From Siphonodentalium dalli (Eukaryota; Mollusca; Scaphopoda; Gadilida; Siphonodentaliidae): a DNA stretch of 64,000 nt. Below the pieces are notes generated by a model. That model ran no database searches. It saw only the letters and a program-made list of their open reading frames with translations, and was not told where the DNA came from. The stretch is from positions 14,411,710-14,475,709 of the forward strand of contig CP136062.1 of NCBI GenBank assembly GCA_032622095.1, given 5' to 3'. This document shows positions 3,354 to 56,275 of the stretch, one piece after another (position 1 is the stretch's first letter; each line of letters begins with the position of its first letter). A program made the position numbers and the translations under genes.

Positions 3354-3531
3354 TCAAGGAAATCTGCGGGTGGAGCTGCGGGTGCCATAACTATGATTTT
3401 GTGAATGTCGAGCAGGACGTTGCACTGATCTGTCAGGACTTTTGCTCTTCTTTAATTCTTCTACTGTCACTCCTTTATCAGCCAGCTCCTCTTTGACTCG
3501 TCGGAGATACGTTTTATCTGGGTACCCAAAA
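3354..3531 (-). CDS. Exon E9 (last): end of the Deltex C-terminal domain, macro-RING-Deltex E3 ligase
   Basis: Acceptor TATTTTTAG precedes TTTTGGGTACCC. Incoming phase 2 matches E8 exactly, the junction creating Asn in GGPENFGYPD. The exon encodes residues 872-930 of the E5-E9 reading: FGYPDKTYLRRVKEEL followed by a basic Ser/Arg-rich tail, ending in TGA at 3354-3356. The motif GYPDxxYLxRVxxEL followed by a short KGVT is the signature of the extreme C terminus of the Deltex DTC domain (established family knowledge). The acceptor and first 35 or so coding bases recur twice more upstream at an exact 65-bp period (exon starts 3596 and 3661). Only the 3531 copy keeps the frame. The tail after KGVT is longer than in vertebrate DTX proteins. 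Confidence 0.9.
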
Positions 3532-3675
3532 CTAAAAATATTAGCAATACATTATTTTAGACTCATTGGAGGTATGTTTGAAATGGGTACCCAAAGCTAA
3601 ATATATTAACAATATATGATGTTTGACTTGTTGGAGGTACATTTCATTCAGGTATCCAAAGCTGTAAAATATGAT
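3498..3675 (-). repeat. Three tandem copies of the E9 splice acceptor plus exon start (65-bp period)
   Basis: On the minus strand, a T-rich tract, an AG, then YTTTGGRTACC and a TAYCTCC...GTC segment appear three times, with exon starts at 3661, 3596 and 3531. The spacing is exactly 65 and 65 bases. The middle copy carries an in-frame TGA after the CTCCAA codons. The outer copies are diverged from the functional one in coding positions. They look like tandem duplicates spanning the intron-exon boundary. Confidence 0.85.
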
Positions 3676-4650
3676 TACACTTACACATGGGGACAAAATG
3701 CAAGTTGTTAATACATTGAATGAATTTTATGGTAAATATTGCCGTCTAAGCCTTCACTAAGTATTTGTACCTATTAATAAAGTCCATAATCTTCGTTTAA
3801 CATAAAAGTAAAATTCCAATTTCTTAGGTCAAATCAATTTTTAAAGCATGCGGTTACCAGTGATGACTTTTTGAAAAACAAAGAGGTATAACTCTTTAAT
3901 GGAAATTGTGAACAACGTCAATGAACCGTCATTTGAAGCCCCCCTGATGCCAAACATGCAAACCAAATTTCATCGAGATCCAATAACAGATGGTCGAGAT
4001 ATATGAGCAGACGGACACAATGATGAATGAATGAACAGACGGATGGCCCGATAAACGCATGTAATCCAGTATACCCCCATAATTACACAGGAGAGATTCC
4101 ATAATTGTAACCGATGAAAAGCCAAATCGCTCATAAAGTCACTTAAAATGTGCAAGTGAAGTATGTTATTTAGGAACAGAACATAACTAAAATATATATT
4201 CCCCGCATTATTTTTCGACTTTATAAGGTTCCCTGTGAAAACAAAAAAAAGTTCCCATGTTTTGTACTGGTGGCATATGATCTCTATGGGCGTAAGCCAG
4301 AGTAGAGATTCGTGGTATGATCTAACATGTAACGTACTAGAATAACATGAGATTGATGAGTATAAAGTACTTCACACAGCTGGTGCATGATACAGTACAA
4401 AGTATTTGGGAAGATAAAATTGTTGTAACTAAATATATTGAGAACGATATTTTTTAGAATGGGAAACTAAGACATATTACGCCATATTGGCAACATCTAT
4501 TGGTTTTATGCCGAGTTGACATTGGGCCTGGTACACTCAAGTTCCACAGATTCAGTCCACTGGAATTTTGAAAACAGCATTTTCCACCCAGCATATATGT
4601 GACCCGCCATATCAAATCCAGTCGTAAGTCGGGATTTTTTTACCCTGTGC

Positions 4651-4716
4651 CAATGCATTCTCTTATATATGCGAGTCGACCATAGGTCGCCTCGCATATA
4701 TAAGAGAATGCATTGG
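4651..4716. repeat. Hairpin around CAATGCATTCTCTTATATATG
   Basis: CCAATGCATTCTCTTATATA is followed, after a 20-base loop, by its inverted complement ending GCATTGG. The same stem with a longer loop recurs at 22551-22648 and a degenerate version near 4795-4855, so this is a dispersed foldback family. Confidence 0.6.
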
Positions 4717-5573
4717 CCTAACAATTTTTTACAATTTTAATAATTTTTTCTTGTATTCTTTAACAATTTTATAATTTCACCCATACAGAGCCCCAGACAA
4801 ACATGAGCAGACGACACTCTTCTATATGCTTCTATATATGTGTGGGGCTCCCTGCAGGGTAATGGATGTTTTTTATTTTAATACTAGGCCAACTAAATCA
4901 ATTTTTGTGTGTGTATGCAATTGTGACTAAGTATAATTAAATACATCGAAACAAAAGTGTTTACCCAATCACAGAGCCGCAAACAAAAGGTAACGAGACT
5001 GAAACTGATAGATTTAATTTAGGAAGAGGGAAATAGTGTACGGGTTTTTCCAGGAATTACCATAACTAATCTAATTTTCTATCGCACATAATTATTTTGG
5101 CGATTGCTCTGTGTAATCATTCCAAATCCCGCGATCATAAAGGAATGCCAACTATTCAAGGGTTTTCCAACATTTCAAGGATTTATACATACCCTATTAT
5201 TCAAGGGTTTTCAATGAGTTTAGGTGAAATACAAGGTTATTCAAGGAGCCGTGGTAACCATGTTTATTGACATTAGTACAAGTCAATTTTCCTTCTCTTT
5301 GAAGACTGCCGACATCTTTTATCAATTGAAAACTAGGATCCTTATGATGCATACCATATGAAGGTATGTGTTACGCTTTACAACACCAGTTATCCTACGT
5401 TGTTGTGCGCAGACAGTAACGTACTATGTGGAGCCACAAAATAAGCGGCGACAAACAGGTGAGTCATATTTCTGTCTATCAATTATCTTTTTTGCGGACG
5501 AAAAAAACTAAAATCTGGTAGTACCCTTTGTAGCATATACCCTGGCATCCACAGGCAGTATTTTTCAGTAACC

Positions 5574-5789
5574 TACAGTAATGCCCTAAGTAATCCACTC
5601 CATAACCACAGCAGAATTATGGGTAACTTTTCAGGATTTAGTCAGAAATGTGGAGTGTTGCCATTCATCGGAAAGCTCTCGGGGAGAGCTTTCCGATGAA
5701 TGGCAACAAGCCATATTTCGACTAAATCCTGAAAAGTTACCCATAATTCTGCTGTGGTTATGGAGTCGATTACTTAGGGCATTACTGTA
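5574..5789. mobile_element. Pal MITE, copy 2
   Basis: Full-length copy with both ~100-bp arms and the TACAGTAATGCC / GGCATTACTGTA termini. The second arm has lost a base in TTTCGACTAAATCC. It is 28 bp from copy 3. Confidence 0.85.
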
Positions 5790-5816
5790 TCCTTAGAATT
5801 ATTGAAATTATATTAT

Positions 5817-5967
5817 AGTCGGAATTATGGCTTGTTGCCACTCATCGGAAAGCTCTCAGTGAGAGCTTTCCGATGAATGCCAACAAGCCATATTTCTGAT
5901 TAAATCCTGAAAAGTTACCCATAATTCTGCTGTGGTTAAGGAGTCGCTTATTTAGGGCATTACTGTA
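5817..5967. mobile_element. Pal MITE, copy 3 (left arm truncated)
   Basis: Begins inside the left arm at AGTCGGAATTATGGC and keeps the whole right arm to GGGCATTACTGTA. Confidence 0.8.
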
Positions 5968-6041
5968 TTTCCGAACATCCAAATCATGTGATCAAATACA
6001 GGGAGTTGTTTCTGGACCAACATACTGGAAAATGAAAGTAT

Positions 6042-6341
6042 ATGATGAAGTCTGAGGATGGCATAGTTCCAAATGAACAAGTGAAAGAATTAAAAGCGAA
6101 TAGATATGAGCAAAGGGATGGTGTATACATAATCAACAATATTACGAAAAAGAATAAACTAAACAGTCCAGTAAAAGTCCCAGAAAGCAGAAGGTCAATC
6201 ACATTTGAAGACCAATGTCGCCGAAATGAGAGTCAGGAAAGCAGGATAATAGGAGCTGACGATACATCGACCAATGAAAAGGAGACATTCTTAAGAGAAG
6301 TCGCCACTTTGATGCCATGGCAACTATTTCATATACAATAA
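6042..6341 (+). CDS. Orphan ORF, 99 codons, function unknown
   Basis: Open frame rich in Lys, Glu, Arg and Asn, without membrane segment, cysteine cluster or motif I know. It begins MMKSEDGIVPNEQVKEL and ends PWQLFHIQ. The composition is more protein-like than other short frames here. It lies antisense inside an intron of the Deltex-type gene, between foldback copies, and no splice partner was found. It may be a remnant of a transposon or retrogene, or chance. Confidence 0.22.
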   Translation: MMKSEDGIVPNEQVKELKANRYEQRDGVYIINNITKKNKLNSPVKVPESRRSITFEDQCRRNESQESRIIGADDTSTNEKETFLREVATLMPWQLFHIQ

Positions 6342-6891
6342 ATATTCATGGTGGGTGACGGGGTTTGCCGAATGGAAGTGGGCGTCGCCTATACAAGACC
6401 TCATATTCCCAACTGTTGCAAAAATGTGGACTGGGAAATGGACTAGTCACAGTCAACTGCGTAAACATTGTGTGGCTTGCTGGGTGTGGGAAAAAAGTTG
6501 AATTTTTCGCCTGTTCTTCTATCAAAATGATGGCTATCTTCATGTGATTTTCGTTTTGATGAATAGCCTGTTGTTCTGGCCCTACCTCGATCATGCGCTC
6601 GTTTTCATTTAGTAAATAATCAACATACCATATTACATTTATCGTTTCCGAAAGCAAAACAAGAACAACTTACACACTTGGAAGTCCCTGTTCGCTTAAA
6701 ATAGATTATGTAATTCATGGAAGGGGAACGAAACACACGCGAAACGAAATTCTCATAGTTCGATTGAACAGCCACAGCGAGTGAGTGAACTCTTTGATGC
6801 GCGTCGATGTTTGATCATCATACTTTAATTTAGTCTTTACCGGCAAAAATCATGCTTACAGATCATCGTAATTTGGGCACAATTTTGCATT

Positions 6892-7108
6892 TACAGTAAT
6901 GCTCTAATTAATCAACTTCTTAACCACAGCATAATTATGGGTAACTTTTAAGGATTTAGTCGGAAATATGCCTTGTTGCTATTCATCGGAAAGCTCTCGG
7001 CAAGAGCTTTCCGATGAATGGCAACAAGCTATATTTCCGACTAAATCCTGAAAAGTTACCCATAATTTTGCTGTGGTTAAGAAGTCGATTAATTAGAGCA
7101 TTACTTTA
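6892..7108. mobile_element. Pal MITE, copy 4
   Basis: Complete palindrome with termini TACAGTAATGCTCTAATT and the inverted complement ending ATTACTTTA. It shows several substitutions relative to copies 1 and 2. Confidence 0.85.
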
Positions 7109-8338
7109 TGACACACTATTTACCGGCTCTAAATTGGAGGAATTTAATATAGGAAACATGTATTTATCGGTAGACGAATTCACTAGTATACTCCTTTGAC
7201 TTAATAGTATTCACTAGTATACACCTATGACTTAATAAAATGGAATCTTCCATCATAACTGTCCAAAAAAATGCAACATATCAAGTTACTTGGACACGTT
7301 TCATTGTATCAGATATTTCTATTATCGTTTAGTTCATAGGGATTTGATGAGACATATTCCATGGTATTTTAATGACAAATATAGCCCTAATATTCAAGTT
7401 AGCGAATATTTCAGATCACAGTTGTGAACAAAGCTTACATTATATTCTGCACCAAGTTGAAGATGTGGTACTTGTATATACTCAGAGTATTATTTCAGGT
7501 CCTCTGATGATATTTACACTTGGTTTCAATCTATTTCCCCATTTTATCCAGGAAAGAACATATTTTTGGTGCAAAACAGCGCACACATGTTATCTTTTTT
7601 TGGCGCACAATTGTTATCTTTGTCATTTCTCAGGTGCGCACATGTTATCCATGAACGCTGGCTGGTGGTTCCCAAATTGTCATTTTCTTGTGATAAACTT
7701 GAACAAAAGATAGGGTTATATTGGTTATTTGGGTACCCAAGAGAACCAAAATCATAGTTATGTTGAAACGTTTGAGCATGTATGAGTTTTTTTCGGCAAA
7801 AATTGCCACCGAAGTGGTGCAAGTTACTTCGAAAACAGAAACTGTCGCATTGATATGGTAATAATTTCAATAATTTTAAGGATAGGATACTGAAAAAACT
7901 TTCTATGGACGCCAGGGTATATGCTACGAAGGGTATTACCAGACTTTTGTTTTTTCGTCAGAGAAAAAGTGAAACATGTTTCACATGTTTGTTATAGCTC
8001 AGTTTATGACACAAATGTCAGATAACTGGAGTGTTTACATTGCATTGAAAATAGAATCTCTCTGTTGTGTGTGTTAATGGATACAACGTAACAGATGTAT
8101 CACAGCCTTGGTGTTATTTTCTCTAATAAATTTCCTGCACAATGCACGCAATGTACTCATTTCAACGCTACTTTAATCAATTTACTTATGAACAGTTTGG
8201 AGACATTGTAAAAATAGATTTACTTACGAACAGTTTTGAGAAATGGTAAATAGTTTACTTTCAGATTTCGTTATAGAGACTCACTAATTCGTCAATATGA
8301 ATGAAAATCCATCGTAAAGAGAAACTGTACATAACTCA

Positions 8339-8915
<577 letters not shown>

Positions 8916-8938
8916 GGATTGGGATGGTTTTCTTGCAA

Positions 8939-9600
8939 AGATTCTTTCTATAATAAATAATATAACGCCCACTAATGCTGCATTTCATTTTAGAACTTTA
9001 TTTATAATTGGTTACCCAGCATTGCAAGGGTTAAAAGAGTACACAAGCCTTTAATATTATTTATTACGGGTGACAGATAATAAAGTCACTTACTAAATAT
9101 ATTCACATTCTTTACCAATGCCAAAGATGAACCCACAACACTAACAGTTAAGTGTCCCGACCCTTCTGCCATTATTTTGGTGACTTTATATCACGCCATT
9201 AGATTCCCATTATCATGTCGATGCATCTTAGTTTGCAGAAAATTGGTAAATTTACAATGAGAAGTTTGGAACATAATGTGATAAGATATCTGAGAAATTA
9301 AACAATTCCATTTTTTCCCTGCACAGAACAAAATTTATCACATATTAATTAGCCCCTAAACCTGGCCTCATATTTTTTAGTAAGACACACATGTATTATT
9401 GGCACATGCAGGGATGTAACAGCTTAGCGCAATAATATCGATCAATGTTATTATTATGTTAATTAGTATACAACTATGAAATTAATTTTGTCAATTTTGT
9501 CAACATGAAAGCTTGGCTCGAATAGAATTTAGTACACTTGGTTAATAATTTTATACAGAATTGCGACTCATCAGAGATCCTCTATGGTGCGGGTGCCTAT
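8939..9600. other. Intron sequence without recognised elements
   Basis: AT-rich, with no ORF, no long palindrome and no tandem array. It belongs to the E7-E8 intron. Confidence 0.5.
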
Positions 9601-9719
9601 GATAAACAACTAATATTTTGTGTTGAACGGCCTTATATATAGTGAATTATTATTAAATATAAATTAAAGTCGAGGAGAATCCTCCAGGGAGGCTCTCAAT
9701 CTAAGCAAAATCCTTGTAA

Positions 9720-9762
9720 TGGTCTAGCACTTTCGATAACTGGTGTATCTTCATCAGGACCA
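9720..9762 (-). ncRNA. Hammerhead-ribozyme-like motif (candidate)
   Basis: Minus strand: TGGTC, then CTGATGA, then GATA/TATC closing a CACCAGT loop with one extra A, then GAAA, then GTGC, TA and GACCA. TGGTC and GACCA pair as stem I, and the invariant CTGATGA and GAAA boxes are in order, with a UA at the expected cleavage position. Stem III would be minimal, as reported for hammerheads of Penelope-like elements and retrozymes (family knowledge). Weak points are the bulged A at the base of stem II and the very short stem III. No second copy was found in the window. Confidence 0.4.
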
Positions 9763-9889
9763 GAATGGCATGGGCAGAAGTGGATTTTTGCCTGTCCTTT
9801 TATACTTTAGATTGGTTGAGAGTGTAATTTGATTGGTCAATGAGTAGAGGTCAGTGGGTAGTAGTTAACCCAGAAGAGGTCATGAGGTG

Positions 9890-10540: not shown

Positions 10541-10549
10541 TGTGAGTAT

Positions 10550-15599: not shown

Positions 15600-15830
15600 A
15601 ATATACCTTCCGGATTCCACTCCAGATGACATAGATAAACAACTAATATTTTGTGTTGAGTGGCCTTATATATAGTGAATTATTATACAGTATACCTTCT
15701 GCATTCCACTCTGGATGGTATAGATGCTTAAGATAAACAACTAATATTATGTGTTGAGTGGCCTTATATATAGTGAATTATTATACAGTATACCTTCTGG
15801 ATTCCAGTCCGGAGGGCATAGTTTATTTCT
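15600..15830 (-). repeat. Three tandem copies of the E7 exon end plus splice donor
   Basis: Minus strand: TATGCCCTCC...CCAGAAG/GTATACTG (exon end 15794), TATACCATCC...GCAGAAG/GTATACTG (15696) and TATGTCATCT...CGGAAG/GTATATTT (15607), spaced 98 and 89 bases. All three share the following intron bases TAATAATTCACTATATATAA and GTTGTTTATC. The intron part of the third copy continues at 9661-9601, because the 5.9-kb insertion landed in it. Only the first donor keeps the frame with E8. Confidence 0.88.
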
Positions 15831-16317
15831 ATAGCACCATAGCTCTCGTATCCCGCTAGATGTTTGAAAGATTTAACACTTGATTCCATCGTTCCGTCTT
15901 CAGGCTGATCCCCCGTCAGTATGCCGTACACCTTCCCACACAACGGACAGGTCGGTTTGAACTTAAAGCTCTGATCTATGCAGTCCTTACAGAAGACGTG
16001 ACCACACTTATCGAGCTTTTTAGGCTCGGTAATCTTATCCATGCATATGGAACAATTCTCCTCCTCCGGCTTCTCATCCTTTATCGTTCCCATTGATAAA
16101 GGTTTTTCAGGTGCTTTATTTTTTGAGTTGTTTTTCGAGTCATGTTTGTCGCAGTCTTTACAAAGATTGATCATTCTCTCCCTGAGTTTCGACTGTGCTA
16201 CATCTTTTTCGGTGATGACGTGGATTTCAGACAGTGACCGATCACTGCGTGATATCTCACAAATAATTAAATCAAATAATAAATTGACTGCTGTTTCTTT
16301 TGGTGCACCAGCATTAC
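15794..16317 (-). CDS. Exon E7: end of macro domain 2, RING finger, start of DTC domain
   Basis: Acceptor TTTTTTGTAG before GTAATGCTGG, donor CAGAAG/GTATAC. Phase 1 in, phase 0 out, 524 nt. It encodes residues 626-799. The first ~50 residues complete macro domain 2 (NAGAPKETAVNLLF, then SLSEIHVITE), then a Lys/Asn-rich linker, then a C3HC4 RING at about 713-751: CSIC, KCGHVFC, KDC and CPLC with canonical spacing. It continues with YGILTGDQPEDGTM and LAGYESYGAIEINY, which are Deltex signatures (GNQPEGTM and PGYExxGxIxIxY in relatives). The product is expected to be a RING-type E3 ubiquitin ligase acting with an E2. The tripled donor at its 3' edge is described separately. Confidence 0.95.
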
Positions 16318-17381
16318 CTACAAAAAATAATATATGTTGGAATAATTACTTTCGCATGAATTATTTATACTCATTTATAGTAACATAAATATCTATCATT
16401 CTTCATAAAGGTCACACACAGGTGATACAAAAGTAATTTTATGTCCTATAATCAATAAAAAACCTGGAAAATTCCGTTGAAAAAAATCTATTATTATTAT
16501 TAAAAAACCGAATTTTGTAGCCAGATTGGACAGGTAGCAGAAGGTAGGAGCTTCACACTATCCAAATAACCTGTTGACATTATTACAATACATAAGTGAT
16601 TTAAAGATGGTCTATCTATTCCGGGTCACAATTACAACAACAACATAAATTTTATAAGTCCCAATTTCAATATTACAAACAGCTATTTTGTGAATAATTT
16701 AAAATACAGAAAAACCATCATTCCCAGATGAACAAAGAAGGATAACTTTAGAACGGAATGACAATGTTTTTAGGCACTCTTTGAAAGCACTTCTGATGGC
16801 ATCCATCCATACCAAGTTTCATTCAGATCCGATGAACCATGACTGAAGATATCTGGGCACACATGTATTATCTGTTTGGCAGTCTGTTGTCTCATTATAT
16901 TTATGAACCATGAGTGAAGATATTTCGGCAGACATGTATTATCAGTTTGACAGACAGTTGTGTCTGATTATATTTCCCAAACTGTACACTTTTTTAATAA
17001 ATGATGGGGAATCTATTTAGTAAAGAAATTGTTAACTCTATAATAAATACTCAGGAAATGTTCAGATAATAATTTCAACAAATGTCATTTGCTAGGTTGA
17101 ACTTATCATCTGAACTTACAAAGAATATAAATCCTTTTGCACTTGTATTTTCTCATCTACTCATTTTCCTAAACACCCCCTCCAATTTAATAGTAGATGA
17201 TTCCAATGTATACTATTAAACTGAATGGGAGAATCCATTTAGTGAAGAGTTAAACTTACCTGCGCACAGTATCGGGAAAGTAACAGAATGTAGCGCATAT
17301 GCATCAATGGTTGTGAAAACTTTCTTAATACAGTCCGAGAAAATGGGAGAATCCATTTATAAAAGAAAGGGTTAAACTTAC
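16318..17381 (-). other. Intron E6-E7
   Basis: Contains the second copy of the E6 donor (exon-like end at 17260) and a degenerate tandem motif around 16850-16950 (GAAGATATYTSGGCAGACAT with TGTATTATC). Otherwise it is AT-rich with no gene. Confidence 0.75.
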
Positions 17382-17466
17382 CTGCACACAGTATCGGGAA
17401 GGTAACTGTCTGTAGCCCGTATTCACTGATCCTTGTGAAAACATTCTTAATACAGTCAGAGAATAT
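17223..17466 (-). repeat. Tandem duplication of the E6 exon end plus donor (122-bp period)
   Basis: The minus-strand block from GACTGTATTAAGAA through TTCCCGATACTGTG and CAG/GTAAGTTTAA to ATGGATTCTCCCATTT occurs twice. Exon ends are at 17382 and 17260. The first copy reads SDCIKNVF...TFPILCAG; the second would read the same domain segment with about eight changes but has no acceptor of its own. Reading through the first donor adds 122 nt (a frameshift) and meets a stop at 17239. Confidence 0.9.
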
Positions 17467-18107
17467 ATTCTCAAATTTGTCTTTTTCACTTCGATATCCT
17501 GGTAAAACAACATGGACAACATTTCGAGTAGGCAGATTTCCACCGCATGTTATGAAAACAGTCCCGAGTTTATCTTCATGCCTATTCGACATCTCCGACA
17601 AATGATCCTGATAATCCTTTCCTCCTTTCCTCTTTACTGCATTTTGTAAATATCCGTTAGAACTCCTGTTCCATCCAATCACTATACAGTCAGTATTTAC
17701 TTTTAGTAAATCACCTTTGTAACCATAAATCGTTGTTTTGCTCAATTCACACATGTCAGCCTCAGTACCATTTTCTAATTTAATTTTTTTGTATCGTCCG
17801 ATCTTCTCACTTTTGGACTCTTTCATTTCATCATCAACCATCACATAGCTGTCAAGCTGTAGGTTCTCTGACATACCATCTCCTTGTTGATAATGTGAGT
17901 CGACACCTTGGTAGACTGATTGATCAATGGGGTTCACTATGGGTGAATTCTTCCGGAATTCTGTCTCCATCTTGGAAAGCATATCCTCACTAACATCAAC
18001 AAAATGGATCACCTCCAGCGTTGAGTTTGATGTTCTGTGTTCGCTGTAGTATCGTGCTGCATCAGCGTAAACCTTAGCACAATGTCGCTTTGGTACTCTG
18101 TAGATAC
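17382..18107 (-). CDS. Exon E6: end of macro domain 1 and most of divergent macro domain 2
   Basis: Acceptor TTTAACTTTAG before GTATCTACAGAG, donor GTGCAG/GTAAGT. Phase 1 in and out, 726 nt, encoding residues 383-625. IYRVPKRHCAKVYADAARYY continues the ISSG loop of macro domain 1 from E5, ending with the strand EVIHFVDVS. After an acidic/Lys-rich linker, macro domain 2 starts at about 506 (GYKGDLLKVNTDCIVIGWN). Its NAAN position reads GWNRSSNG and the ILCAG loop replaces ISSG, so ADP-ribose binding or hydrolysis cannot be assumed. In PARP9 and PARP14, tandem macro domains read ADP-ribose on partners (family knowledge). Confidence 0.93.
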
Positions 18108-22648: not shown

Positions 22649-22786
22649 CACTGGCACAGGATCAATAATGCTACACCAGCTCGGCTCCTGTCATGAAAGG
22701 GTTAATGAATGACTGCACAGGTTTTAGTGAGGCCTGGGGATATTCTGACTGACTGGCCAAAAGTCTGGCTATTATGAATACTATAC

Positions 22787-23933
22787 CTGAGCTGATAGTG
22801 CACACGGCTATGGACTTGGCTTTGATCTTGTCGGCCTCAATGAAGCAGATATGCACAGCCTTGAAAAGGTCGTTCAGGCAGTCTGATTTGCTTAATGGGT
22901 AGTCGTCCCACTGAGGTCCGACGGTGTGTATCACGCTATGGCATGGCATCCTTCCCGCGGACGTGATATAAGCTGAACCTATGTCTAACTTCCCTTGTCT
23001 CATAACCAGATTGTCACTTTCCACCCTGATAATATCACCGCCGGCTCTTTCTATGGCAGCCGCGATTCCACCACCATGCCTCATCTCCGCATTAGCTGCA
23101 TTCACGATAGTGTCAACCTGAATTTTAGTGATGTCAGCCCGGTGAACTTTAACCCAAAGCTTTTCTCCCAGCTTGATCATGTCATCATCAACCTTGTGTG
23201 AAGTATCATCTGAAACATCGTCTGCATCATCGCTTGCAAATTGTCGCCGTTTTCTCGATTTTGTTTTCTTTGGGCCTAGAAGGTATTGGAGTTTATTCTT
23301 CACCATAGAAATCTCTTCCCAGTCCAAACTCTGAATTCTTATTTTGCGATTAGAATCATCCATTAAAATATTACATGAGAAATTCTTCTCGCAATCCGAT
23401 ATGATTTCTGCGAGTTCGGCCTGTGAATCGGGCTGATATTCCACAACATCCTCATTGACATGAGGGATTATATCAACGTCGTGACTAATAAGCCTACTGA
23501 ACGTGACAACATCATGCTTTTGGCAGAATAATCTGACCATCCCATCTTCGTTTAATTGAATTCTTATGAACTGAGAATCGATCAAGCTCTTTAATAATTT
23601 TAACTTTGAAAACTGCATGGTTTTGTCGTAATCTTTCCTAGAAAGCAGTTTGAACTCTATGTTCTTTTCCTCATTTTCACTCTGACTTCTAGATACTACA
23701 GATGGCAAGAGAGCAGCTGTGTGTGGCTCAGCATGTCCAATATAGTGTTTAATAGCTTTTTCTGCTTCTAAGATCTGGTACATCGTTCCCTGGAATTCAA
23801 TCGTGTTTTTCCTTTGGACAGCCTCGAGTCCTGTTTGCAATTTCACTTTCCGTTTCATATCGCTGACAGCACTCTTGCACTCAGCAGCTTCAAATAAGCT
23901 TTGTCGTAACTGAACTTTGACTTCACAAAAAAC
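22787..23933 (-). CDS. Exon E5: KH-like region and canonical macro domain 1
   Basis: Acceptor CACATTTTCAG before GTTTTTTGTGAAG, donor AGCTCAG/GTATAG. Phase 0 in, phase 1 out, 1147 nt open. It encodes residues 1-382 of the confident reading. Residues 1-~225 are alternating helix/strand segments resembling the KH-like repeats of DTX3L and PARP14 (inference). An acidic linker (DDADDVSDD) and a basic cluster (KKTKSRKRRQF, possible nuclear signal) follow. Macro domain 1 starts at about 258: VHRADITKIQVDTIVNAAN, HGGGIAAAI, IHTVGPQW and TISSG. The Asp, NAAN and GGG elements that bind ADP-ribose are intact. The protein probably starts further upstream, because the frame is open to the acceptor. Confidence 0.94.
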
Positions 23934-34072: not shown

Positions 34073-37000
34073 TAGAATGGAAAATATGAAAGATGGCTAA
34101 CCTCCGTAAAATATGAAAGATGGCTAACCTCCGTAAAATATGAAAGATGGCTAACGTCCGTAAAATATGAAAGATGGCTAACGTCCATAAAATATGAAAG
34201 ATGGCTAACGTCCGTAAAATATGAAAGATGGCTAACGTCCGTAAAATATGAAAGATGGCTAACGTCCGTAAAATATGAAAGATGGCTAACCTCCGTAAAA
34301 TATGAAAGATGGCTAACGTCCGTAAAATATGAAAGATGGCTAACCTCCGTAAAATATGAAAGATGGCTAACCTCCGTAAAATATGAAAGATGGCTAACCT
34401 CCGTAAAATATGAAAGATGGCTAACCTCCGTAAAATATGAAAGATGGCTAACCTCCGTAAAATATGAAAGATGGCTAACCTCCGTAAAATATGAAAGATG
34501 GCTAACCTCCGTAAAATATGAAAGATGGCTAACCTCCGTAAAATATGAAAGATGGCTAACCTCCGTAAAATATGAAAGATGGCTAACCTCCGTAAAATAT
34601 GAAAGATGGCTAACCTCCGTAAAATATGAAAGATGGCTAACGTCCGTAAAATATGAAAGATGGCTAACGTCCGTAAAATATGAAAGATGGCTAACGTCCG
34701 TAAAATATGAAAGATGGCTAACGTCCGTAAAATATGAAAGATGGCTAACCTCCGTAAAATATGAAAGATGGCTAACCTCCGTAAAATATGAAAGATGGCT
34801 AACCTCCGTAAAATATGAAAGATGGCTAACCTCCGTAAATTATGAAAGATGGCTAACCTCCGTAAAATATGAAAGATGGCTAACCTCCGTAAAATATGAA
34901 AGATGGCTAACCTCCGTAAAATATGAAAGATGGCTAACCTCCGTAAAATATGAAAGATGGCTAACCTCCGTAAAATATGAAAGATGGCTAACATCCGTAA
35001 AATATGAAAGATGGCTAACGTCCGTAAAATATGAAAGATGGCTAACGTCCGTAAAATATGAAAGATGGCTAACGTCCGTAAAATATGAAAGATGGCTAAC
35101 GTCCGTAAAATATGAAAGATGGCTAACCTCCGTAAAATATGAAAGATGGCTAACCTCCGTAAAATATGAAAGATGGCTAACCTCCGTAAAATATGAAAGA
35201 TGGCTAACCTCCGTAAAATATGAAAGATGGCTAACCTCCGTAAAATATGAAAGATGGCTAACCTCCGTAAAATATGAAAGATGGCTAACCTCCGTAAAAT
35301 ACGAAAGATGGCTAACCTCCATAAAATATGAAAGATGGCTAACCTCCGTAAAATATGAAAGATGGCTAACCTCCGTAAAATATGAAAGATGGCTAACCTC
35401 CGTAAAATATGAAAGATGGCTAACCTCCGTAAAATATGAAAGATGGCTAACCTCCGTAAAATATGAAAGATGGCTAACCTCCATAAAATATGAAAGATGG
35501 CTAACCTCCGTAAAATATGAAAGATGGCTAACCTCCGTAAAATATGAAAGATGACTAACCTCCGTAAAATATGAAAGATGGCTAACCTCCGTAAAATATG
35601 AAAGATGGCTAACCTCCGTAAAATATGAAAGATGGCTAACCTCCGTAAAATATGAAAGATGGCTAACCTCCGTAAAATATGAAAGATGGCTAACCTCCGT
35701 AAAATATGAAAGATGACTAACCTCCGTAAAATATGAAAGATGGCTAACCTCCGTAAAATATGAAAGATGGCTAACCTCCGTAAAATATGAAAGATGGCTA
35801 ACCTCCGTAAAATATGAAAGATGGCTAACGTCAGTAAAATATGAAAGATGGCTAACCTCCGTAAAATATGAAAGATGGCTAACCTCCGTAAAATATGAAA
35901 GATGGCTAACCTCCATAAAATATGAAAGATGGCTAACCTCCGTAAAATATGAAAGATGACTAACCTCCATAAAATATGAAAGATGGCTAACTTCCGTAAA
36001 ATATGAAAGATGGCTAACCTCCGTAAAATATGAAAGATGGCTAACCTCCGTAAAATATGAAAGATGGCTAACCTCCATAAAATATGAAAGATGGCTAACC
36101 TCCGTAAAATATGAAAGATGGCTAACCTCCGTAAAATATGAAAGATGGCTAACCTCCGTAAAATATGAAAGATGGCTAACCTCCATAAAATATGAAAGAT
36201 GGCTAACCTTCGTAAAATATGAAAGATGGCTAACCTCCGTAAAATATGAAAGATGGCTAACCTCCGTAAAATATGAAAGATGGCTAACCTCCATAAAATA
36301 TGAAAGATGGCTAACCTCCGTAAAATATGAAAGATGGCTAACCTCCGTAAAATATGAAAGATGGCTAACCTCCGTAAAATATGAAAGATGGCTAACCTCC
36401 GTAAAATATGAAAGATGGCTAACCTCCGTAAAATATGAAAGATGGCTAACCTCCGTAAAATATTAAAGATGGCTAACCTCCGTAAAATATGAAAGATGGC
36501 TAACCTCCGTAAAATACGAAAGATGGCTAACCTCCGTAAAATATGAAAGATGGCTAACCTCCGTAAAATATGAAAGATGGCTAACCTCCGTAAAATATGA
36601 AAGATGGCTAACCTCCGTAAAATATGAAAGATGGCTAACCTCCGTAAAATATGAAAGATGGCTAACCTCCGTAAAATATGAAAGATGGCTAACCTCCATA
36701 AAATATGAAAGATGGCTAACCTCCGTAAAATATGAAAGATGGCTAACCTCCGTAAAATATGAAAGATGACTAACCTCCGTAAAATATGAAAGATGGCTAA
36801 CCTCCGTAAAATATGAAAGATGGCTAACCTCCGTAAAATATGAAAGATGGCTAACCTCCGTAAAATATGAAAGATGGCTAACCTCCGTAAAATATGAAAG
36901 ATGGCTAACCTCCGTAAAATATGAAAAATGGCTAACCTCCGTAAAATATGAAAAATGGCTAACCTCCGTAAAATATGAAAAATGGCTAACCTCCGTAAAA

Positions 37001-37787
37001 TATGAAAAATGGCTAACCTCCGTAAAATATGAGATGGCTAACCTCCGTAAAATATGAAAAATGGCTAACCTCCGTAAAATATGAAAAATGGCTAACCTCC
37101 GTAAAATATGAAAAATGGCTAACCTCCGTAAAATATGAAAAATGGCTAACCTCCGTAAAATATGAAAAATGGCTAACCTCCGTAAAATATGAAAGATGGC
37201 TAACCTCCGTAAAATATGAAAAATGGCCAACCTCCGTAAAATATGAAAAATGGCTAACCTCCGTAAAATATGAAAAATGGCTAACCTCCGTAAAATATGA
37301 AAAATGGCTAACCTCCGTAAAATATGAAAAATGGCTAACCTCCGTAAAATATGAAAAATGGCTAACCTCCGTAAAATATGAAAAATGGCTAACCTCCGTA
37401 AAATATGAAAAATGGCTAACCTCCGTAAAATATGAAAAATGGCTAACCTCCGTAAAATATGAAAAATGGCTAACCTCCGTAAATTATGAAAAATGGCTAA
37501 CCTCCGTAAAATATGAAAAATGGCTAACCTCCGTAAAATATGAAAGATGGCTAACCTCCGTAAAATATGAAAAATGACTAACCTCCGTAAAATATGAAAA
37601 ATGGCTAACCTCCGTAAAATATGAAAGATGGCTAACCTCCGTAAAATATGAAAAATGGCTAACCTCCGTAAAATATGAAAAATGGCTAACCTCCGTAAAA
37701 TATGAAAAATGGCTAACCTCCGTAAAATATGAAAAATGGCTAACCTCCGTAAAATATGAAAAATGGCTAACCTCCGTAAAATATGAA
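34073..37787. repeat. 27-bp satellite, main block, about 137 units
   Basis: The unit TCCGTAAAATATGAAAGATG plus GCTAACC is repeated head to tail for 3.7 kb. Three diagnostic positions vary: CCTCC/CGTCC, CCG/CCA, and GAAAGATGG (mostly to ~36915) against GAAAAATGG (mostly after). CGTCC units cluster near 34150-34330, 34640-34740 and 35015-35110, suggesting segmental copying. One unit at 37030 lacks 3 bases. Because 27 is divisible by 3, all frames lacking a stop stay open for hundreds of codons (FTEVSHLSY, LAIFHILRR, LTSVKYEKW); I do not regard these as genes. Confidence 0.97.
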
Positions 37788-39157: not shown

Positions 39158-39365
39158 AAAAATGGCTAACCTCCGTAAAATATGAAAAATGGCTAACCTC
39201 CGTAAAATATGAAAAATGGCTAACCTCCGTAAAATATGAAAAATGGCTAACCTCCGTAAAATATGAAAAATGGCTAACCTCCGTAAAATATGAAAAATGG
39301 CTAACCTCCGTAAAATATGAAAGATGGCTAACCTCCGTAAAATATGAAAAATGGCTAACTTCCGT
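39158..39365. repeat. 27-bp satellite, continuation after element K
   Basis: About 7.5 units, nearly all of the GAAAAATGG type, which matches the units just left of element K. The last unit runs into TTCCGTACCAAATTTCATTC of another dispersed repeat. Confidence 0.95.
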
Positions 39366-39509
39366 ACCAAATTTCATTCAGATCCGATGACCCATGACTC
39401 ATATATTTGCTTGGATGGATGGATAAATGTGCGCATGTATGGATGCAAGATAGATATATGGATGGGTGTAAATCAGAATATCCCCCAATCTTTGAGTGGG
39501 GTATTATAA
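39366..39509. mobile_element. 3' end of a hairpin-ended dispersed element
   Basis: CCAAATTTCATTCAGATCCG, then ATGGATGG repeats, then CCCCCAATCTTTGAGTGGGG hairpin and TATTATAAA terminus, like the ends at 21387 and 27147. The 27-bp satellite joins its left side without a break, so the satellite may be the internal minisatellite of this element. The end lies only 11 bases from the donor of exon candidate E3. Confidence 0.6.
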
Positions 39510-39519
39510 ATAATTATAC

Positions 39520-49588: not shown

Positions 49589-50494
49589 GAAACTCCCAAG
49601 ATGGGATTTTAAAATCTGAAATAGTTACTATCCTTTCGGTCATAAACATGTTTATTCGTGGTTCTACAAATTTGGCTGTGGCATTAAAACCAATCAATGG
49701 TAGGGTATCAAAGTCTATCTGACTTATAGGATGTAATTTATTACAGTATACCATCCATGTGTTAATTACATCTCTCCAGAAAGGATTATCAACAGCTTGA
49801 GCATGCTTCTTTAAAATAGATGGGGTCATTAGGTACCAACATGTATTAACTATGGGGGCAGAATTTTCAAGAATGATAGTCCATGATGTATCTTGAACTA
49901 TACATCTTTTAATCCATGATATTTTCATTGAGTTCATAAATCCATTTAGATCAGTCATTGCACATCCACCATTTGTATAATCTTGTATAAGTTGTTTCCT
50001 ACTAATTCTATCTGGACCATTCTTCCAAACAAAACCAAAAAGAGTTTTATTTAGTTCTTTAATGAATTGTGCTGGAGGGTTTGGTAATGCTAGGAATAAG
50101 TGTACAATTTTTGAAATAGCTAGGGATTTTACTACAGTTATCCTGCCTAGTGCAGTCAAGTTTCTTCTACCCCATGTTGAATGTATGTTTTTTATTTTAT
50201 TTAATCCATTAGAGAAATTTATATCGATCATTCTGTTAATATCGTGATTAAATTCAATACCCAATATTTTGAATGTTTCCGGTATCCATTTTAATTTCCA
50301 CCTGTCACAAATAGTCTCTGTGCAATCTGATTTGGTACCTATCCAAACTGCCTGCATTTTATTGTAATTAATTTTCTTGAAACGTGTTTAAATTTATCAA
50401 GGATATACATGGTTGCTTCCAGTGACTCGGGTGACCCGTCCAAAAATATGGATGTATCATCAGCGTATTGAGATATTCGTATATTTTTATTACC
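49575..50494 (-). pseudogene. LINE ORF2, RT catalytic end and thumb
   Basis: Immediately left of the nested insertion the minus frame reads RISQYADDTSIFLDGSP (50420-50475), holding the catalytic YADD box. A frameshift near 50385 leads to the 260-codon frame MQAVWIGTKSD, then FKILGIEFNHDI, GRITVVKSLAISKI and GGCAMTDLNGFMNSMKISWI, typical of L1-like ORF2 after the RT. Confidence 0.8.
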
Positions 50495-50509
50495 AACATT
50501 GATTCCATT
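50495..50509. repeat. Target-site duplication of the nested LINE, left copy
   Basis: AACATTGATTCCATT, repeated at 52025-52039. Confidence 0.92.
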
Positions 50510-50527
50510 GAAAATGAAATATATTAC

Positions 50528-51355
50528 ATGAAAGATCTCATGAAGGATAACTCAGGTCTTTTGAATTATGAGGAATTTTGTCAAAAATACACCTCTACAA
50601 TTCCTTTCACCACCTATCATGGACTGTTAGCTGCCATACCTCGTGCATGGAAAACATTTGTGAATGAAAACATGAAACTTGATACAATCACCAATAATAA
50701 TCTAGAAACCTTGAAGAATTGTGTAAAAACATGCAAAACATTTTATCCAAAATTTTTGCAAATCTATTGCACAATTCCAACTGTTTCACAGAAAAAGTGG
50801 GCGAAAAATCTTGATAAAATATTTTCTGAAGAAGACTGGAAAAAAATCTATACTAATATATATACATTTACTAATGACAGTAGTCTCATATCATTCCAGT
50901 ACAAAATAAACCACAATATACTCTATGCCAATGCAAAACTTTTTCAACTAAAGCTGTCAGAAACAGCCATTTGTACATTCTGTCAGTCGGACAGAGAAAC
51001 AATACTACACTTGTTTTATGATTGTACAGTCACAAAATCTATTCTACTTGAATTTCAACAAAAAATTTAAAAGAAATGTGATCTGATACTGAAAATTTCA
51101 CCAGAAATTGTGATTTTTGGAATATATGACGAATACAACACTCAAGACAACTTGATGAATATTTGCCTCCTACTATTCAAACGATATATTTTCTCCAGCA
51201 TGATAAAAAAGAAAGACCCAACTTTTATTGGATTTCAAGAATGGCTTAAGTATTATAAGACAGTAGAACAAGCATCGCCAAAAAAATTTGCATCGAAAAA
51301 AGACATCCTTTTTCATGATAGATGGAATATGATAGAAAATATCTTTAAACAATAA
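50528..51355 (+). pseudogene. Nested LINE ORF2, C-terminal part
   Basis: One continuous frame broken by a single TAA at 51068-51070. It includes FQYKINHNILYANAKLF, then CTFCQSDRETILHLFYDC (zinc knuckle), ICLLLFKRYIFSSM and FHDRWNMIENIF. The domain layout equals that of the host LINE (CTFCKNKIETILHIFWEC), so the two belong to related families. Confidence 0.75.
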
Positions 51356-51659
51356 CGTTATAAAAATCTTTTTAGTCCTCTCCTTCACATATTTTTTCTG
51401 GCAAATGTCAGCATAGTTCCACGGCAATTCATACTCATAAATATAAATAAAAAGTACTGTATACAAGCCCACATGCATGTATGTCACAGGAGTTCATCTC
51501 CTTCAACAACCTTGCAACTTGTCAAATTTCATTCTCAGACTAGCCTTTGGCAAATCATAGAGAGAGACTTCTGGCAGGTTGCACTGAGTTGTTGGTGGAG
51601 GGGGGGGGTGGACTTTTGGAACATTGTGTTTGTCTTACATGGTTCTTTTTGCTTACTGT

Positions 51660-51683
51660 TTTTTTTTTTTTTTTTTTTTTTTT
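51660..51683. repeat. T homopolymer in the nested LINE 3' UTR
   Basis: About 24 T. It may mark another small insertion tail, but no duplication was found. Confidence 0.5.
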
Positions 51684-52039
51684 CTCTTCTCAACTCATCA
51701 AACAAATTAAAAGAGACATCAGAAGATAACCATCATCCAACATGATAACTTTTCACTCTGATAACTTAATAACAAAACAAAAACAAGAAAACAAAACAAA
51801 ACAAATGGGTTTAATACCTCCAATCGTTTATTTCAAGTAAACACTCATCACAGAACCATGTAAGGAAGAACTATATTATAGGACAGTATTTTGCTTCCTA
51901 CGTTTATGTAATTTTCTTTACCTTAAATATACAAAAATTCATATACATTTATGTCATTACAGTTTTGTGTAAATCAATATTTTTTTGATTCCAATAAAAA
52001 TTATTTAAAAAAAAAAAAAAAAAAAACATTGATTCCATT

Positions 52040-52759
52040 AACTGTCGGAGAGTTTCTCACCATAATACCTAGAATTTCACCACATAATAGAAATATATAT
52101 GGGGATATAGGATCGCCTTGTCTGCACCCCCGCTCTAAGTTAAAAAATCTGGATATCTGACCATTCATGTTTATACATGACGATGAATCACAATAAAGGG
52201 TTTGTATATAATTGATGAACGTTTGACTAAACTTGAAATATTTCAAAACAGCGATAATAAATTTCCAAGAAATTGAATCAAACGCCTTCTCAAAATCAAT
52301 CATTAGCATAAGTCCAGGTATTTTGTTTTTCTTTGTAAATGACATCATGTCCATCATAAGCCTTATGTTTTCCCCAATATATCTACCGGCTATAAATCCA
52401 GTTTGATCTGGATGTATTAATGTAGGTAAGAACTTTTTCAATCTATTTGATAACACTCCAGTAAGTATTTTGTATGTTACATTTAAGAGAGAGATCGGTC
52501 TCCAATTTTTCAGAAATTGTCTAGGTTTGTTACCTTTTGGTAACAGTGTGACAATACCCTGCCTTTGTGTAGTCGACAGCTTTCCTATACTTAAACCATA
52601 ATTCATTGATCTGACCAGGTAGGCTCCCACATCAGTCCAAAAAAATTTGTAAAACTCTACACTGAAACCATCATTTACCGGGCATTTATTGTTTTTCATA
52701 TTTTTAAGATAATTAAGCGCTTCACCGTATGTAATGGGATTATCCAAGTAGTCAGTCAT
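52040..52759 (-). pseudogene. LINE ORF2, reverse transcriptase fingers/palm
   Basis: Contains PVNDGFSVEFYKFF, GIVTLLPKGNKPRQFLKNWR, PISLLNVTYKILTGVLSNRL, HPDQTGFIAGRYI, MIDFEKAFDSISW and CRQGDPISPYIFLL: RT motifs 0 to 4 in order. The frame is cut by the nested insertion just before the YADD box, which lies at 50420-50475. Confidence 0.85.
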
Positions 52760-53507
52760 TCTGTGTAAGTTTTGTTACATTTTTTTCCTTTATTTCATTC
52801 ACATCTTTAAGTATTGCCTCAATATCAAGAGGTAGACTTTCATCGTCTTTATTTTTATATAGAGTTTCATAAAACTTGGTTGTTTCATCTAATATTTCAT
52901 GTTGTTCATATATTGTTTCACCCGTCTCCCGTTCAAGCTTTTGGATTATTTTAGATGTAAAGTTACGCTTTTCTAAATTTAGAAAATATTTTGAGGGTTT
53001 TTCACCATCGCTTAGCCATCTTGCTCTTGATCTAACAAATATGCCATTTAATTTCTCTTATCTCAATGTTTCTAATTCATGCTTTATTTTTTTGCTTTCT
53101 GCTAACTCAGTTTCTGTTGGGTTAACTATTTGTTCTAACAGGTCTATTTTAGTTGTTAAGTCCAATTCTTTGCATTTTCTTTTTTTTGATAGATGAGCAC
53201 AAAAAGGTATTGATGCACTGCGTATTTCCATTAGAACCATTTAAAAAAATAGTTGGTCATTTATACTAAATTGCACTACATTTTGGTCTATTTCTTCACT
53301 GTTTCTTGTTGTTGCATATTGGTTAATAACCGTTTTTATTGTGTCCTTCACTAACTGTATATATTCCTTATTTTTCAGCAATGAATTATTAAATTTCCAG
53401 AATCCTCTTTTTCTCTTAAAATTGTTAAATTTTAGTAATACTGATATTGCCGAATGGTCAGTTTTATATCCAGGTAGTATATCACAGTTTTCGACAGTGG
53501 GTATCAT
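52760..53507 (-). pseudogene. LINE ORF2, linker between endonuclease and RT
   Basis: Several shifted frames. 53241-53507 has PGYKTDHSAISVLLKF (the last endonuclease motif, SDH-like: TDHSAI) and RGFWKFNNSLL. 53058-53240 is helical and Glu/Lys-rich. The next part has RARWLSDGEKPSKYFLNLEK. All are normal parts of L1-like ORF2. At least three frameshifts or stops are visible. Confidence 0.7.
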
Positions 53508-54135
53508 ATCTTGTGAAATTAGAAAAAAAGTCTAATCGAGCTTGTTTGGTTGGGTTAGTTCGGCGCCATGTGAACCTTTGGGTATCAGGATTATTTTTAC
53601 GCCATACATTAATTAGATTTAATTCATCAATCATTTTAATAACTTCGTCTCGTGCATGTGGGTTATTTATATTAATATAGTTCATTTGATCAATGTTCGG
53701 ATCCAAGATCAAGTTAAAATCACCACATATCACTATGTTACCATTGTCTTTTTCTTCTAAATATGTTCTGAGATCCTTATAGAAATTAGGTTCATCGTTA
53801 TTCGGTCCGTATAAGTTTACTATTGTCATAGGTTTATTTTCTATTTCTGCATGGACTATTATGAGGTTACCAGCCTGGTCAGTTTTCGTATCAGTTAATT
53901 TAAAGCTGAAGTTGTTTTGTATTAATATCGCTACACCCCGTGATGAACTAGTATATGAGTTGAAGGCGATCTCATATCCCCATTCTACCCTAATGGTATT
54001 TTCCATTTCTTTTTTAAAGTGTACATCCTGTAAACATATTAGACCATATTTCTTATCCCTTATATAATTAAAAACATCTCTTCGCTTTTTCCGGTCACCC
54101 AAGCCCCTGCAATTCATTGACATTATACTAACCAT
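53482..54135 (-). pseudogene. LINE ORF2, apurinic-type endonuclease domain
   Basis: Starts MVSIMSMNCRGLGDRKKRRD, with LICLQDVHF (the catalytic Glu position reads Asp in QDVH, where relatives have QETH), NLYGPNNDEPNFY, ICGDFNLILDP and RFTWRR...ARLDFF. The frame breaks near 53510, before the TDHSAI motif. The Met is the likely ORF2 start, 77 bases inside the element end. Confidence 0.85.
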
Positions 54136-54212
54136 TATGTGTATGCACGTACTCCAACCTCGTGATTACATACATCATTTTATTTGAATTTAAGTAAAGT
54201 CCGTTCAAGGCC

Positions 54213-54343
54213 GACAAATTTCATAATGATCCGATCAAAGGTACGACCTGTAGCCTCTATTGTTGACGCCTTACGCACACACGCGCACACACGGACGACA
54301 AAGCCATGGCAATAGCTCAAACTTTACAAAGTAAAGTTGAGCT
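54213..54343. mobile_element. 164-bp-repeat element A, right end with terminal hairpin
   Basis: After the LINE duplication the element resumes (TGATCCGATCAAAGGTACGA), passes CACACACGGACGACAAAGCC and ends TAGCTCAAACTTTAC / GTAAAGTTGAGCTA plus A. The hairpin is the inverted counterpart of AGCTCAACTTTG at the element start (46475). The end CTAA fits a Helitron-like CTRR terminus (inference). Confidence 0.75.
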
Positions 54344-55365
54344 AATAATTGTTCTTGCAAAGAGATGAATATTTTTCAATCCAGTTAGTATATTCTCCTG
54401 ACAAATATATGGTAATATATACCAAAGAAGGAATTTACTGTGGTACTATATTGTGATTTGTAAGTTGTAGGCGTACCAAATTAGGGTTATAAATCCGACG
54501 TATAATGCGCGTGAATCCAAATAAGGATAATATCATGACTCTGCTTATAAACAATTCACTGTCCTTTTTGTGAGAAACTAAACAACACTCGACCTACATT
54601 TTCTCGGACACAAAGCGTGTTTTGTGAATAATATCAGTATATCACATTCATATCATCAGTATATTCTTGAGGAAATTATCAAAATTTGATCAATATTATT
54701 TCTAAATTATAACCTACAAGAAAAGCCGCCCGTCCCTTTAATATTTTTCAGCAATTTCAATATGTGCATATCATCATATGCAAAATGACGTCATTTATCC
54801 AAAATAATAGAATCTCCATTGGGTTTAATGTTAAATTTTGATCGCAACTGTAGCAAGCAAGAAGCAACTGATCACATATAAATTTTCAAAAATACGTATA
54901 AGGTTCATATTTAGTAGTTTTGAGAAATATCAAATCTCACTGATCACCGGGCATACACCAAATGGCACCCTCTATCATTTTCTGTAAATATGAAACGCTC
55001 TTTAAATTAAGTTGACACCGATTTAGGCCGACCCGCCAAACTTCAAGAATGGAAACAAGTCAATCCTGAAAACACACATACAAACTCCGTTTTCAATTCG
55101 CTTTTAACAAACCAAATATGCAAAATGACATAAGGATATGGTCGTCTTCGATTAACAAGAATTTGTTTGGGCACTGTTCCGGTAACCCCCTAGGACATGC
55201 CAGAGATTTAGTCGCTGGAAAGGGGATATGTCACTTCATAGTTCATGTTGTTTTAAAACTTTTTTCGCAAATTGGATTATAAATTGTTTTCATGTTCAAA
55301 TCCCAGCCAACTCAACACAGTACATTTATCTCCTAATTGTAATAAACACCTCAAAAATACCTGAA
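54344..55365. other. AT-rich stretch without recognised gene
   Basis: I see no array, palindrome or convincing frame. A GTTCAAATCCC at 55293 looks like a tRNA B box but has no tRNA around it. Confidence 0.5.
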
Positions 55366-56200
55366 TAACCTGATGTAATAGATTGAAACTAAGATTATAA
55401 CACCATACCTGTACAACCTCATTGAAACTAGGATTATAACAGCATAGATGGAAACTAAGATTTTAACAACATACATGTATAAACTAAAATTATAACAACA
55501 TACCTGTATCACTTGATTGTAATAGATAGAAACTAAGATTATAACACCGTACCTGTATTAACTAAACAAGAGGTGTGCACTCGAGTGCTAGCATACCTCC
55601 ACTGTGGCAAATTCAACCTGCATTATCCGTAAACCAAACAAAAAAGATTTTTAAATTTAAAGAAAAATTTGGACCAATAATATCGATATGGTGTCACAAG
55701 AAGCTTGTACAGAAAAAATTATTCAAATTGGTTCATATTTGTTAAAGTTATTAAGTCGGACAGAATTTAAGTCAAAATAAGTCGAAAATGAGGCGTAACT
55801 TAAAAAAAGAAAGTCGGACCGAACCGCAATTAGCATCATGCGGAGAGGCAGTCCTAAGGAGATTGCATACAAAATATTATTGAAATCGGTTCATAGTTGT
55901 TCGAGTTATGAGGTCGGGCGGACGGACGGACGAATGGACAGACACACAGAGGGAGAAAGCGTGACGGACGGATTATAACACTGTACCTGTATAAACTAAG
56001 ATTATAACACCATACCTGTACAAACTAAGACCATAACACCATACCTGTATCACCTGATTGTAATAGATGGAAACTAAGATTATAAGAGCATACCTGTATC
56101 AATTGATTGTAATAGTTTGAAATGAAGATTATAATAGAGTACCTGTATAACCTGATTGTAATAGATGGAAACTAAGATTATAAGAGCATACCTGTATCAA
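55366..56200 (-). repeat. Tandem array of the E2 exon end plus donor (49-bp period)
   Basis: Minus strand: CAATCAATTGATACAG/GTATGCTCTTATAATCTTAG-type units. Exon-end positions at 56192 (functional), 56143, 56094 and 56045 are spaced exactly 49 bases; 29-bp short units (55987, 56016) and further copies to 55370 follow. Each keeps the TACAG/GTA junction. The array is split by a dispersed element at 55564-55970. Confidence 0.85.
55564..55970. mobile_element. Dispersed element inserted in the E2 donor array
   Basis: Starts AACAAGAGGTGTGCACTCGA (with GTGCACTCGAGTGC palindrome), carries CGAAAATGAGGCGTAACTTA-like modules and ends in CGGACGGACGGACGAATGGA...GACGGACGG without a clear terminal hairpin. 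The 49-bp array is broken at AACTA and resumes at ATTATAAC. Confidence 0.65.
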
Positions 56201-56275
56201 TTGATTGTTCAGGTTGTCCTTCTGTTGGGGTTCTCATTGACATTTCTTTGGGCGCCTCAATTTCCCCTGATGGGG
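56192..56275 (-). CDS. Exon candidate E2, 84 nt
   Basis: Acceptor TTAATGTTTTGTAG before CCCCATCAGG, donor GATACAG/GTATGC. Phase 1 in and out. It encodes PSGEIEAPKEMSMRT, then PTEGQPEQSIDT: a low-complexity, Pro/Glu-rich linker with no domain. The phases match E1. Its donor is the founder of the 49-bp array. Confidence 0.5.

Follow-up and report, generated by a model that had tools for sequence, protein, structure and literature searches.

Tandem arrays across splice junctions in a macro/RING/Deltex gene and in unrelated core genes of the scaphopod Siphonodentalium dalli: probable counterparts of amphioxus mirages

A 64,000-nucleotide stretch of the Siphonodentalium dalli genome (contig C2:14411710-14475709 of a 2.2-Gb genome in 9 contigs; hereafter the window) was analyzed for tandem repeats at the exon edges of a gene encoding macro, RING and Deltex C-terminal domains, and a control survey was made in unrelated genes of the same genome. 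Tandemly repeated units that cover an exon-intron boundary are found in both, and in three control samples of this one genome the founding duplications span donor sites beyond what random placement gives. With a probability of roughly three in four, we consider these arrays to be junction-spanning minisatellites of the type termed "mirages" in amphioxus, which are tolerated, unstable and seeded across splice junctions.

Profile and homology matches place the macro/RING/Deltex gene on the minus strand of the window. Its exons are numbered as in a preliminary description of this DNA made from the sequence alone, E1, E2, E3 and E5 being putative exons. A search with exon queries located further copies of the gene, here designated B, C, D and E (the window copy being A), and the separate exons F, G, L012 and L013, all of them on C2, with weaker matches on other contigs. 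In the three pieces read, copy B (18.02-18.05 Mb) is 99.7-100% identical to the window copy; C, D and E are diverged from the window gene. The exons with profile matches and the arrays, the latter as reported by Tandem Repeats Finder (TRF) unless otherwise stated, are the following.

17382..18107, minus strand: E6, second macro-domain exon (Pfam Macro, E 3.6e-12)
17224..17463, minus strand: E6-donor duplication of 122 bp, 2 copies, each of about 80 bp of exon tail and about 42 bp of intron
15794..16317, minus strand: E7, RING finger and start of the Deltex C-terminal domain (Pfam)
15602..15821, minus strand: E7-donor array with 98/89-bp spacing, 3 copies, each of about 22 bp of exon tail and about 76 bp of intron start
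3354..3531, minus strand: E9, final coding exon, carrying the end of the Deltex C-terminal domain (Pfam DTC positions 113-133, E 1.4e-5)
3492..3672, minus strand: E9-acceptor array of 65 bp, 2.8 copies, 75% match
8340..8557, minus strand: E8, Deltex C-terminal domain exon (Pfam DTC, E 2.5e-32)
8580..8907, minus strand: 24-bp minisatellite just upstream of E8, wholly intronic, junction not spanned
8913..8941, minus strand: diverged old copy of the E8 acceptor region, 24/29 bases alike by manual count
55366..56208, minus strand: interrupted TACAG/GTA array at the proposed donor of the putative exon E2 (TRF and motif search)
16832..16975, minus strand: 71-bp intronic repeat, 2 copies, away from junctions, used as a comparison array
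22776..23933, minus strand: E4, first macro-domain exon (Pfam Macro, E 4.2e-26; donor end approximate)

Inspection of the window sequence shows that the units of the E6, E7 and E9 arrays cross the exon edge. The E6 donor GT lies at 17381 and a second GT follows 122 bp downstream; AAG/GTATA is present in each of the three E7-donor copies; and each copy at the E9 acceptor contains AG and about 40 bp of the start of E9. At E8 the first exon base is 8557, so the 24-bp minisatellite falls outside the exon; it occurs in the window copy and the near-identical copy B; none of the aligned relatives C, D and L012 has it, and all three share the diverged acceptor copy. The TACAG/GTA array comprises 9 exact occurrences of TACAGGTA and 11 with at most one mismatch, running from 56197 to 55366 with a 434-bp gap between the motifs at 55992 and 55558. 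The putative E2 exon finds a full match in the window only, the extent of copy B that far not having been looked at, and four further matches of 40-41 bp are confined to the far end of the query; this place is therefore a putative junction. The preliminary description had counted at least five multiplied junctions, each repeat spanning the exon-intron boundary itself. This stands for the E6 donor, the E7 donor and the E9 acceptor and in part for E8, where the reported dead copy is real and the minisatellite lies off the junction, and it is uncertain for E2, where the array is real. Its statement that the extra splice dinucleotides mostly survive agrees with the GT and AG of the E6, E7 and E9 copies and with GT in 52 of 53 copies in relative F.

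The gene was chosen for its arrays, and its own array count is therefore no test of whether junctions are favored. Exons of CCT chaperonin, adaptin, myosin and kinesin genes, obtained from Pfam searches, served as controls: 166 exons at 150 loci, together with about 500 bp of flanking sequence at either end and 190.5 kb overall, run with one TRF parameter set. The samples were 63 CCT exons of 86 listed hidden Markov model (HMM) matches, 60 exons of 43 adaptin and 88 myosin matches, and 43 of 123 kinesin matches, picked by position ahead of sequence reading, with near-duplicate places, long open frames and doubtful matches left out. An array was scored as spanning when its period was at least 25 bp and it covered at least 10 bp on either side of the exon-match end, exon edges being HMM-match ends and not annotated splice sites. 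Arrays span 13 of the 332 control edges, namely 10 of 166 donors and 3 of 166 acceptors, alongside 21 intronic arrays in 161 kb. CCT genes contribute 5 donors and no acceptor, adaptin and myosin genes together 1 donor and 3 acceptors, and kinesin genes 4 donors and no acceptor. In the control sequences it can be seen that the exon end with its donor, or the acceptor with the exon start, is repeated; at one CCT donor a 47-bp unit of 43 exon bases and GTAA stands ten times with 99% match.

Since an array can span a junction only where its founding unit already did so, founding units were dropped at random as the null model. By this counting 3.0 spanned edges are expected and 13 are seen (P 1.9e-5 over the 332 edges), and the excess persists when counted by gene (10 genes, P 0.0012) and when only arrays matching at 90% or more are taken (11 seen, 2.2 expected, P 2e-5). 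Donors carry it, with 10 seen against 1.5 expected (P 5e-6), and every sample lies above its expectation: CCT 5 against 1.0 (P 0.004), adaptin and myosin 4 against 1.3 (P 0.04), kinesin 4 against 0.7 (P 0.007). For the preliminary description this means support, mainly at donors, for an excess of junction-spanning arrays over randomly dropped founding units in 166 unrelated exons, and the repeats are not confined to one gene. Decay is lower in junction arrays than in intronic arrays (93.4% against 87.7% match, P 0.004), and longer visibility of junction arrays, considered as a cause of the excess, is therefore not supported.

TRF was silent at adaptin exon L098 (C7:108031840-108033150), where a diverged copy of the exon's own acceptor and start is present and went uncounted, so the TRF counts are lower bounds. 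A second array at L027, carrying the exon-tail motif of the junction array there, and the array at L172, reaching 6 bp into the exon match, were scored intronic, which works against the excess. At kinesin locus L143 a 31-bp array of two copies starts at the donor and was scored exonic since the HMM match overruns. A looser earlier listing of CCT exons had 7 of 126 edges touched, two of them by 13- and 15-bp arrays; periods below 25 bp were later excluded throughout. The earlier, broader criterion (period 25-200 bp, covering the last exon base and the first intron base) was noted before samples 2 and 3; the later rule was tightened to 10 bp on each side and the upper period limit was dropped.

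Several points weigh against seeding across splice junctions. The founding-unit null and the 10-bp rule were fixed after the first sample; the acceptors are without significant excess (3 seen, 1.5 expected, P 0.20); and in three stretches of distant Deltex paralogues, covering E7 and E8 only, no junction array was found by TRF. Splicing from the exon-abutting copy is presumed from structure only. Furthermore, a cruder null in which whole array footprints are moved gives 8.0 expected spanned edges against the 13, and array coverage per base around CCT exons stays level (3.4-6.3% per 40-bp bin) as one moves away from the exon, so that the excess depends on founding-unit counting, which we think is the right one of the two nulls. 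These last two results are what would be expected if tandem duplications arose everywhere in a repeat-rich genome and those at junctions were merely harmless, with no preference for splice sites, and the 71-bp intronic unit, which touches no junction and yet has expanded equally strongly in relative E (more than 3 kb), agrees with this. The founding-unit figures, both overall and at 90% match or more, speak against such pure tolerance, as does the observation that junction arrays are not more decayed than intronic ones; we regard it as possible, although on the doubtful side.

According to the mirage interpretation, a short stretch running from exon end into intron, or from intron into exon, would be duplicated in tandem and tolerated, and the exon-abutting copy would retain its own splice site, so that the extra copies would fall in the intron. 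Such arrays show minisatellite behavior, their copy number differing from paralogue to paralogue and even among close copies of one gene, and they probably grow or shrink by slippage or unequal exchange. Of the E7 unit, A contains 3 copies, C and D 6 each, and F at least 53, the array in F reaching the end of the DNA examined. G has two E9 exons, preceded by 13 and 6 extra copies of the E9 unit. In a pair of CCT gene copies whose sequence is 99.0% alike for 1,118 bp next to the array, the junction unit is present 27 and 14 times, and three kinesin gene copies have 14, 11 and 14 anchors, being 97.6% alike on the exon side (two compared) and about 90-91% just past the array. The mirage of amphioxus Adh3 is said to be somatically unstable.

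Copy-number change between close gene copies also counts against simple assembly error. Collapsed or over-expanded repeats or haplotype duplicates could be suspected, since the contig of the window gene carries a second, near-identical copy of it and matches to some control genes are paired, and some close gene pairs may be unpurged haplotypes. However, the units are diverged in register and common to diverged relatives, an insertion interrupts the E7 array in C and D but not in A, and units of E7 and E9 turn up at several distinct places in differing copy number, which makes an assembly artefact, envisaged in the preliminary description as a refutation, very unlikely. As a separate observation, closely matching second gene copies on the same contig were recorded at C2:14.41-14.44 and 18.02-18.05 Mb, C1:54.08/54.25, C1:68.38/68.55 and C7:133.43/133.49; they represent recent segmental duplications or unpurged haplotypes, identity having been measured for the window gene and the C1:68 pair only.

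A genome-wide DNA search was made with the E7 and E9 units (not with those of E6 or E8). Among the best candidates scored, 32 matches to the E7 unit and 17 to the E9 unit were listed, all on C2 between 14.39 and 18.04 Mb, and a dispersed repeat or transposon is not supported as the source of these units, since all listed matches lie inside the C2 gene cluster. The E6 donor has the same position in A to E and the E7 donor unit is common to A, C, D and F; a new intron lacking a counterpart in the relatives was not found at these two donors in the copies named. The E6 duplication has two copies in A, B and C and one in D and E. The single donor copy of D and E resembles the one now intronic in A, B and C, in which the end abutting the exon is a divergent copy; either the first copy was lost in D and E, or a divergent copy took the place of the original exon end in A, B and C. 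E6 of these three copies (window 17224-17463) is therefore a possible case of exon-end replacement.

The preliminary description had named selection of the extra sites as decoys as one possibility. Selection, be it for decoys, backups or isoform diversity, could account for the retention of GT not only in F but in 27 of 27 and 14 of 14 units of the CCT gene and in 36 of 39 over the three kinesin copies, and for the few mismatches around the donor in F, where the units were themselves picked by an anchor over that stretch. Nevertheless, among 51 aligned F units the GT columns have 1 and 0 mismatches while 62 of the 98 columns have none at all, and in relative G the acceptor G is missing from 5 of 19 units, more often than the mean column mismatch of 8.7%, several of the five looking alike and probably reflecting few events. 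Nothing here indicates that conservation is directed at the splice dinucleotides in particular, the test not being strong. The second E6 donor, if used, would add 122 nt, which is not a multiple of 3, and relatives D and E do without the extra E6 copy. Maintenance by selection appears improbable to us.

A peculiarity of a diversifying, immune-type gene family, also proposed earlier, would suit the several relatives with differing arrays in the macro/Deltex cluster, and the 4 of 13 edges affected from E3 to E9 (E8 counted, E5 assumed) against a background of 3.9%, in a gene that was chosen for its arrays. It is contradicted by the occurrence of such arrays in genes for CCT, adaptin, myosin and kinesin, and the distant Deltex paralogue stretches examined (E7 and E8 only) lack them; this explanation we hold to be very unlikely.

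As to where the duplications begin, the 10 control donor units mostly consist of exon tail and 4-41 intron bases, which places their right breakpoint close to the donor. Their mean exonic share is 0.73 (Kolmogorov-Smirnov P 0.02, splits made by eye), a skew that is partly built in, since arrays with less than 10 bp of exon are not scored as spanning. Unit length is a multiple of 3 in 6 of 10 (P 0.09), and the direct contrast of donors with acceptors, 10 to 3, gives P 0.09. It could tentatively be speculated, with more doubt than belief, that the 5' splice site itself marks the start of tandem duplication, perhaps through a replication or repair event linked to transcription or splicing. If that were so, mirages would be a general class of mutation that can be counted and that contributes to the growth of introns and the replacement of exon ends, as possibly at E6 of A, B and C. 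The local hotspot of the preliminary description is contradicted by the controls as far as it concerns this gene alone, and a genome-wide hotspot at donors is compatible with them.

The preliminary description knew of no process seeding tandem repeats at splice junctions, and here amphioxus provides a precedent: the accessible text of two papers describes mirages as minisatellite-like duplications of intron/exon boundaries (PMC3087553, PMC3902484), in Adh3 and the globins BflGb6 and BflGb9 (PMC3087553) and in PGBD5 (PMC3902484). For the globins, reverse-transcription PCR suggests regular splicing and a model of intron gain is proposed (PMC3087553, accessible text); in the present work splicing is presumed from the DNA. 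The window and control arrays fit the mirage description in its testable features. The unit spans the boundary (E6, E7, E9 and 13 control edges), both intron ends are affected (10 donors, 3 acceptors), many but not all copies keep GT or AG (in F 52 of 53 have GT, and 5 of 19 in relative G have lost the acceptor G), and length instability is seen between gene copies (27 against 14; 14, 11 and 14), not between individuals. Likewise, the amphioxus cases (Adh3, BflGb6, BflGb9, PGBD5 and troponin C) are, so far as their accessible descriptions go, tandem copies of boundaries at either intron end in several unrelated genes, with many copies keeping AG or GT and with copy number differing between haplotypes. 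The differences are that the host here is a mollusc with a 2.2-Gb genome, that one array has at least 53 copies, and that frequency was measured and a donor excess tested. In line with a molluscan host, a muscle myosin fragment of this genome has 3i5f as its best match among solved structures, followed by 1dfk and similar entries, which come from squid and scallop.

Two further systems are comparable. Variable minisatellites at exon-intron boundaries of recent paralogues are described in human segmental-duplication genes, where, according to the accessible part of the report, they alter coding or splicing in primate-specific paralogues (PMC2812944); here conserved basic genes are affected too, and coding is apparently untouched. 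Intron gain by tandem genomic duplication likewise involves tandem duplication with splice signals and, in the portions available, creates a new intron within an exon (PMC4974935, PMC3443670), whereas the introns examined here pre-exist and no new intron is shown. No molluscan report of a junction array was found among the open-access papers searched, judged by titles and abstract starts; in their accessible parts, an abalone intronic minisatellite is not said to span a junction (PMC6905558) and an earthworm study concerns intronic repeats only (PMC12783039).

The type of structure is therefore already known; the novelty lies in the phylum of the host, in how often the arrays occur and in their excess at donors. 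The value of the material lies in 13 of 332 sampled edges, that excess and copy numbers of 53 or more: amphioxus mirages were described one gene at a time, among the accessible papers, whereas here 10 of 166 donors in core genes are involved, a number of cases sufficient to ask why junctions are favored, whether inner sites are used and whether the arrays contribute to intron growth or gain. It also serves as a warning to gene predictors and short-read mappers, since exon ends may be repeated tens of times within introns.

Other elements were observed nearby. The window contains a 27-bp tandem array of 137 copies with 98% match at 34081-37787, with a smaller block of a like unit at 39158-39366 (TRF). 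Open reading frames (ORFs) of retroelement type lie on the plus strand at 28.0-32.5 kb, with an RVT_1 reverse transcriptase match and an RNase H-like RVT_3 match slightly below cut-off, together with a GDSL-lipase-like ORF below cut-off. On the minus strand at 49.6-54.1 kb are remains of an element of the type without long terminal repeats, comprising endonuclease (PF03372) and reverse transcriptase (PF00078) ORFs and a third ORF without Pfam match. Among the control families, eleven matches to one myosin-head segment within 1.3 Mb (C4:274.2-275.5 Mb) form a tandem cluster of muscle-type myosin genes.

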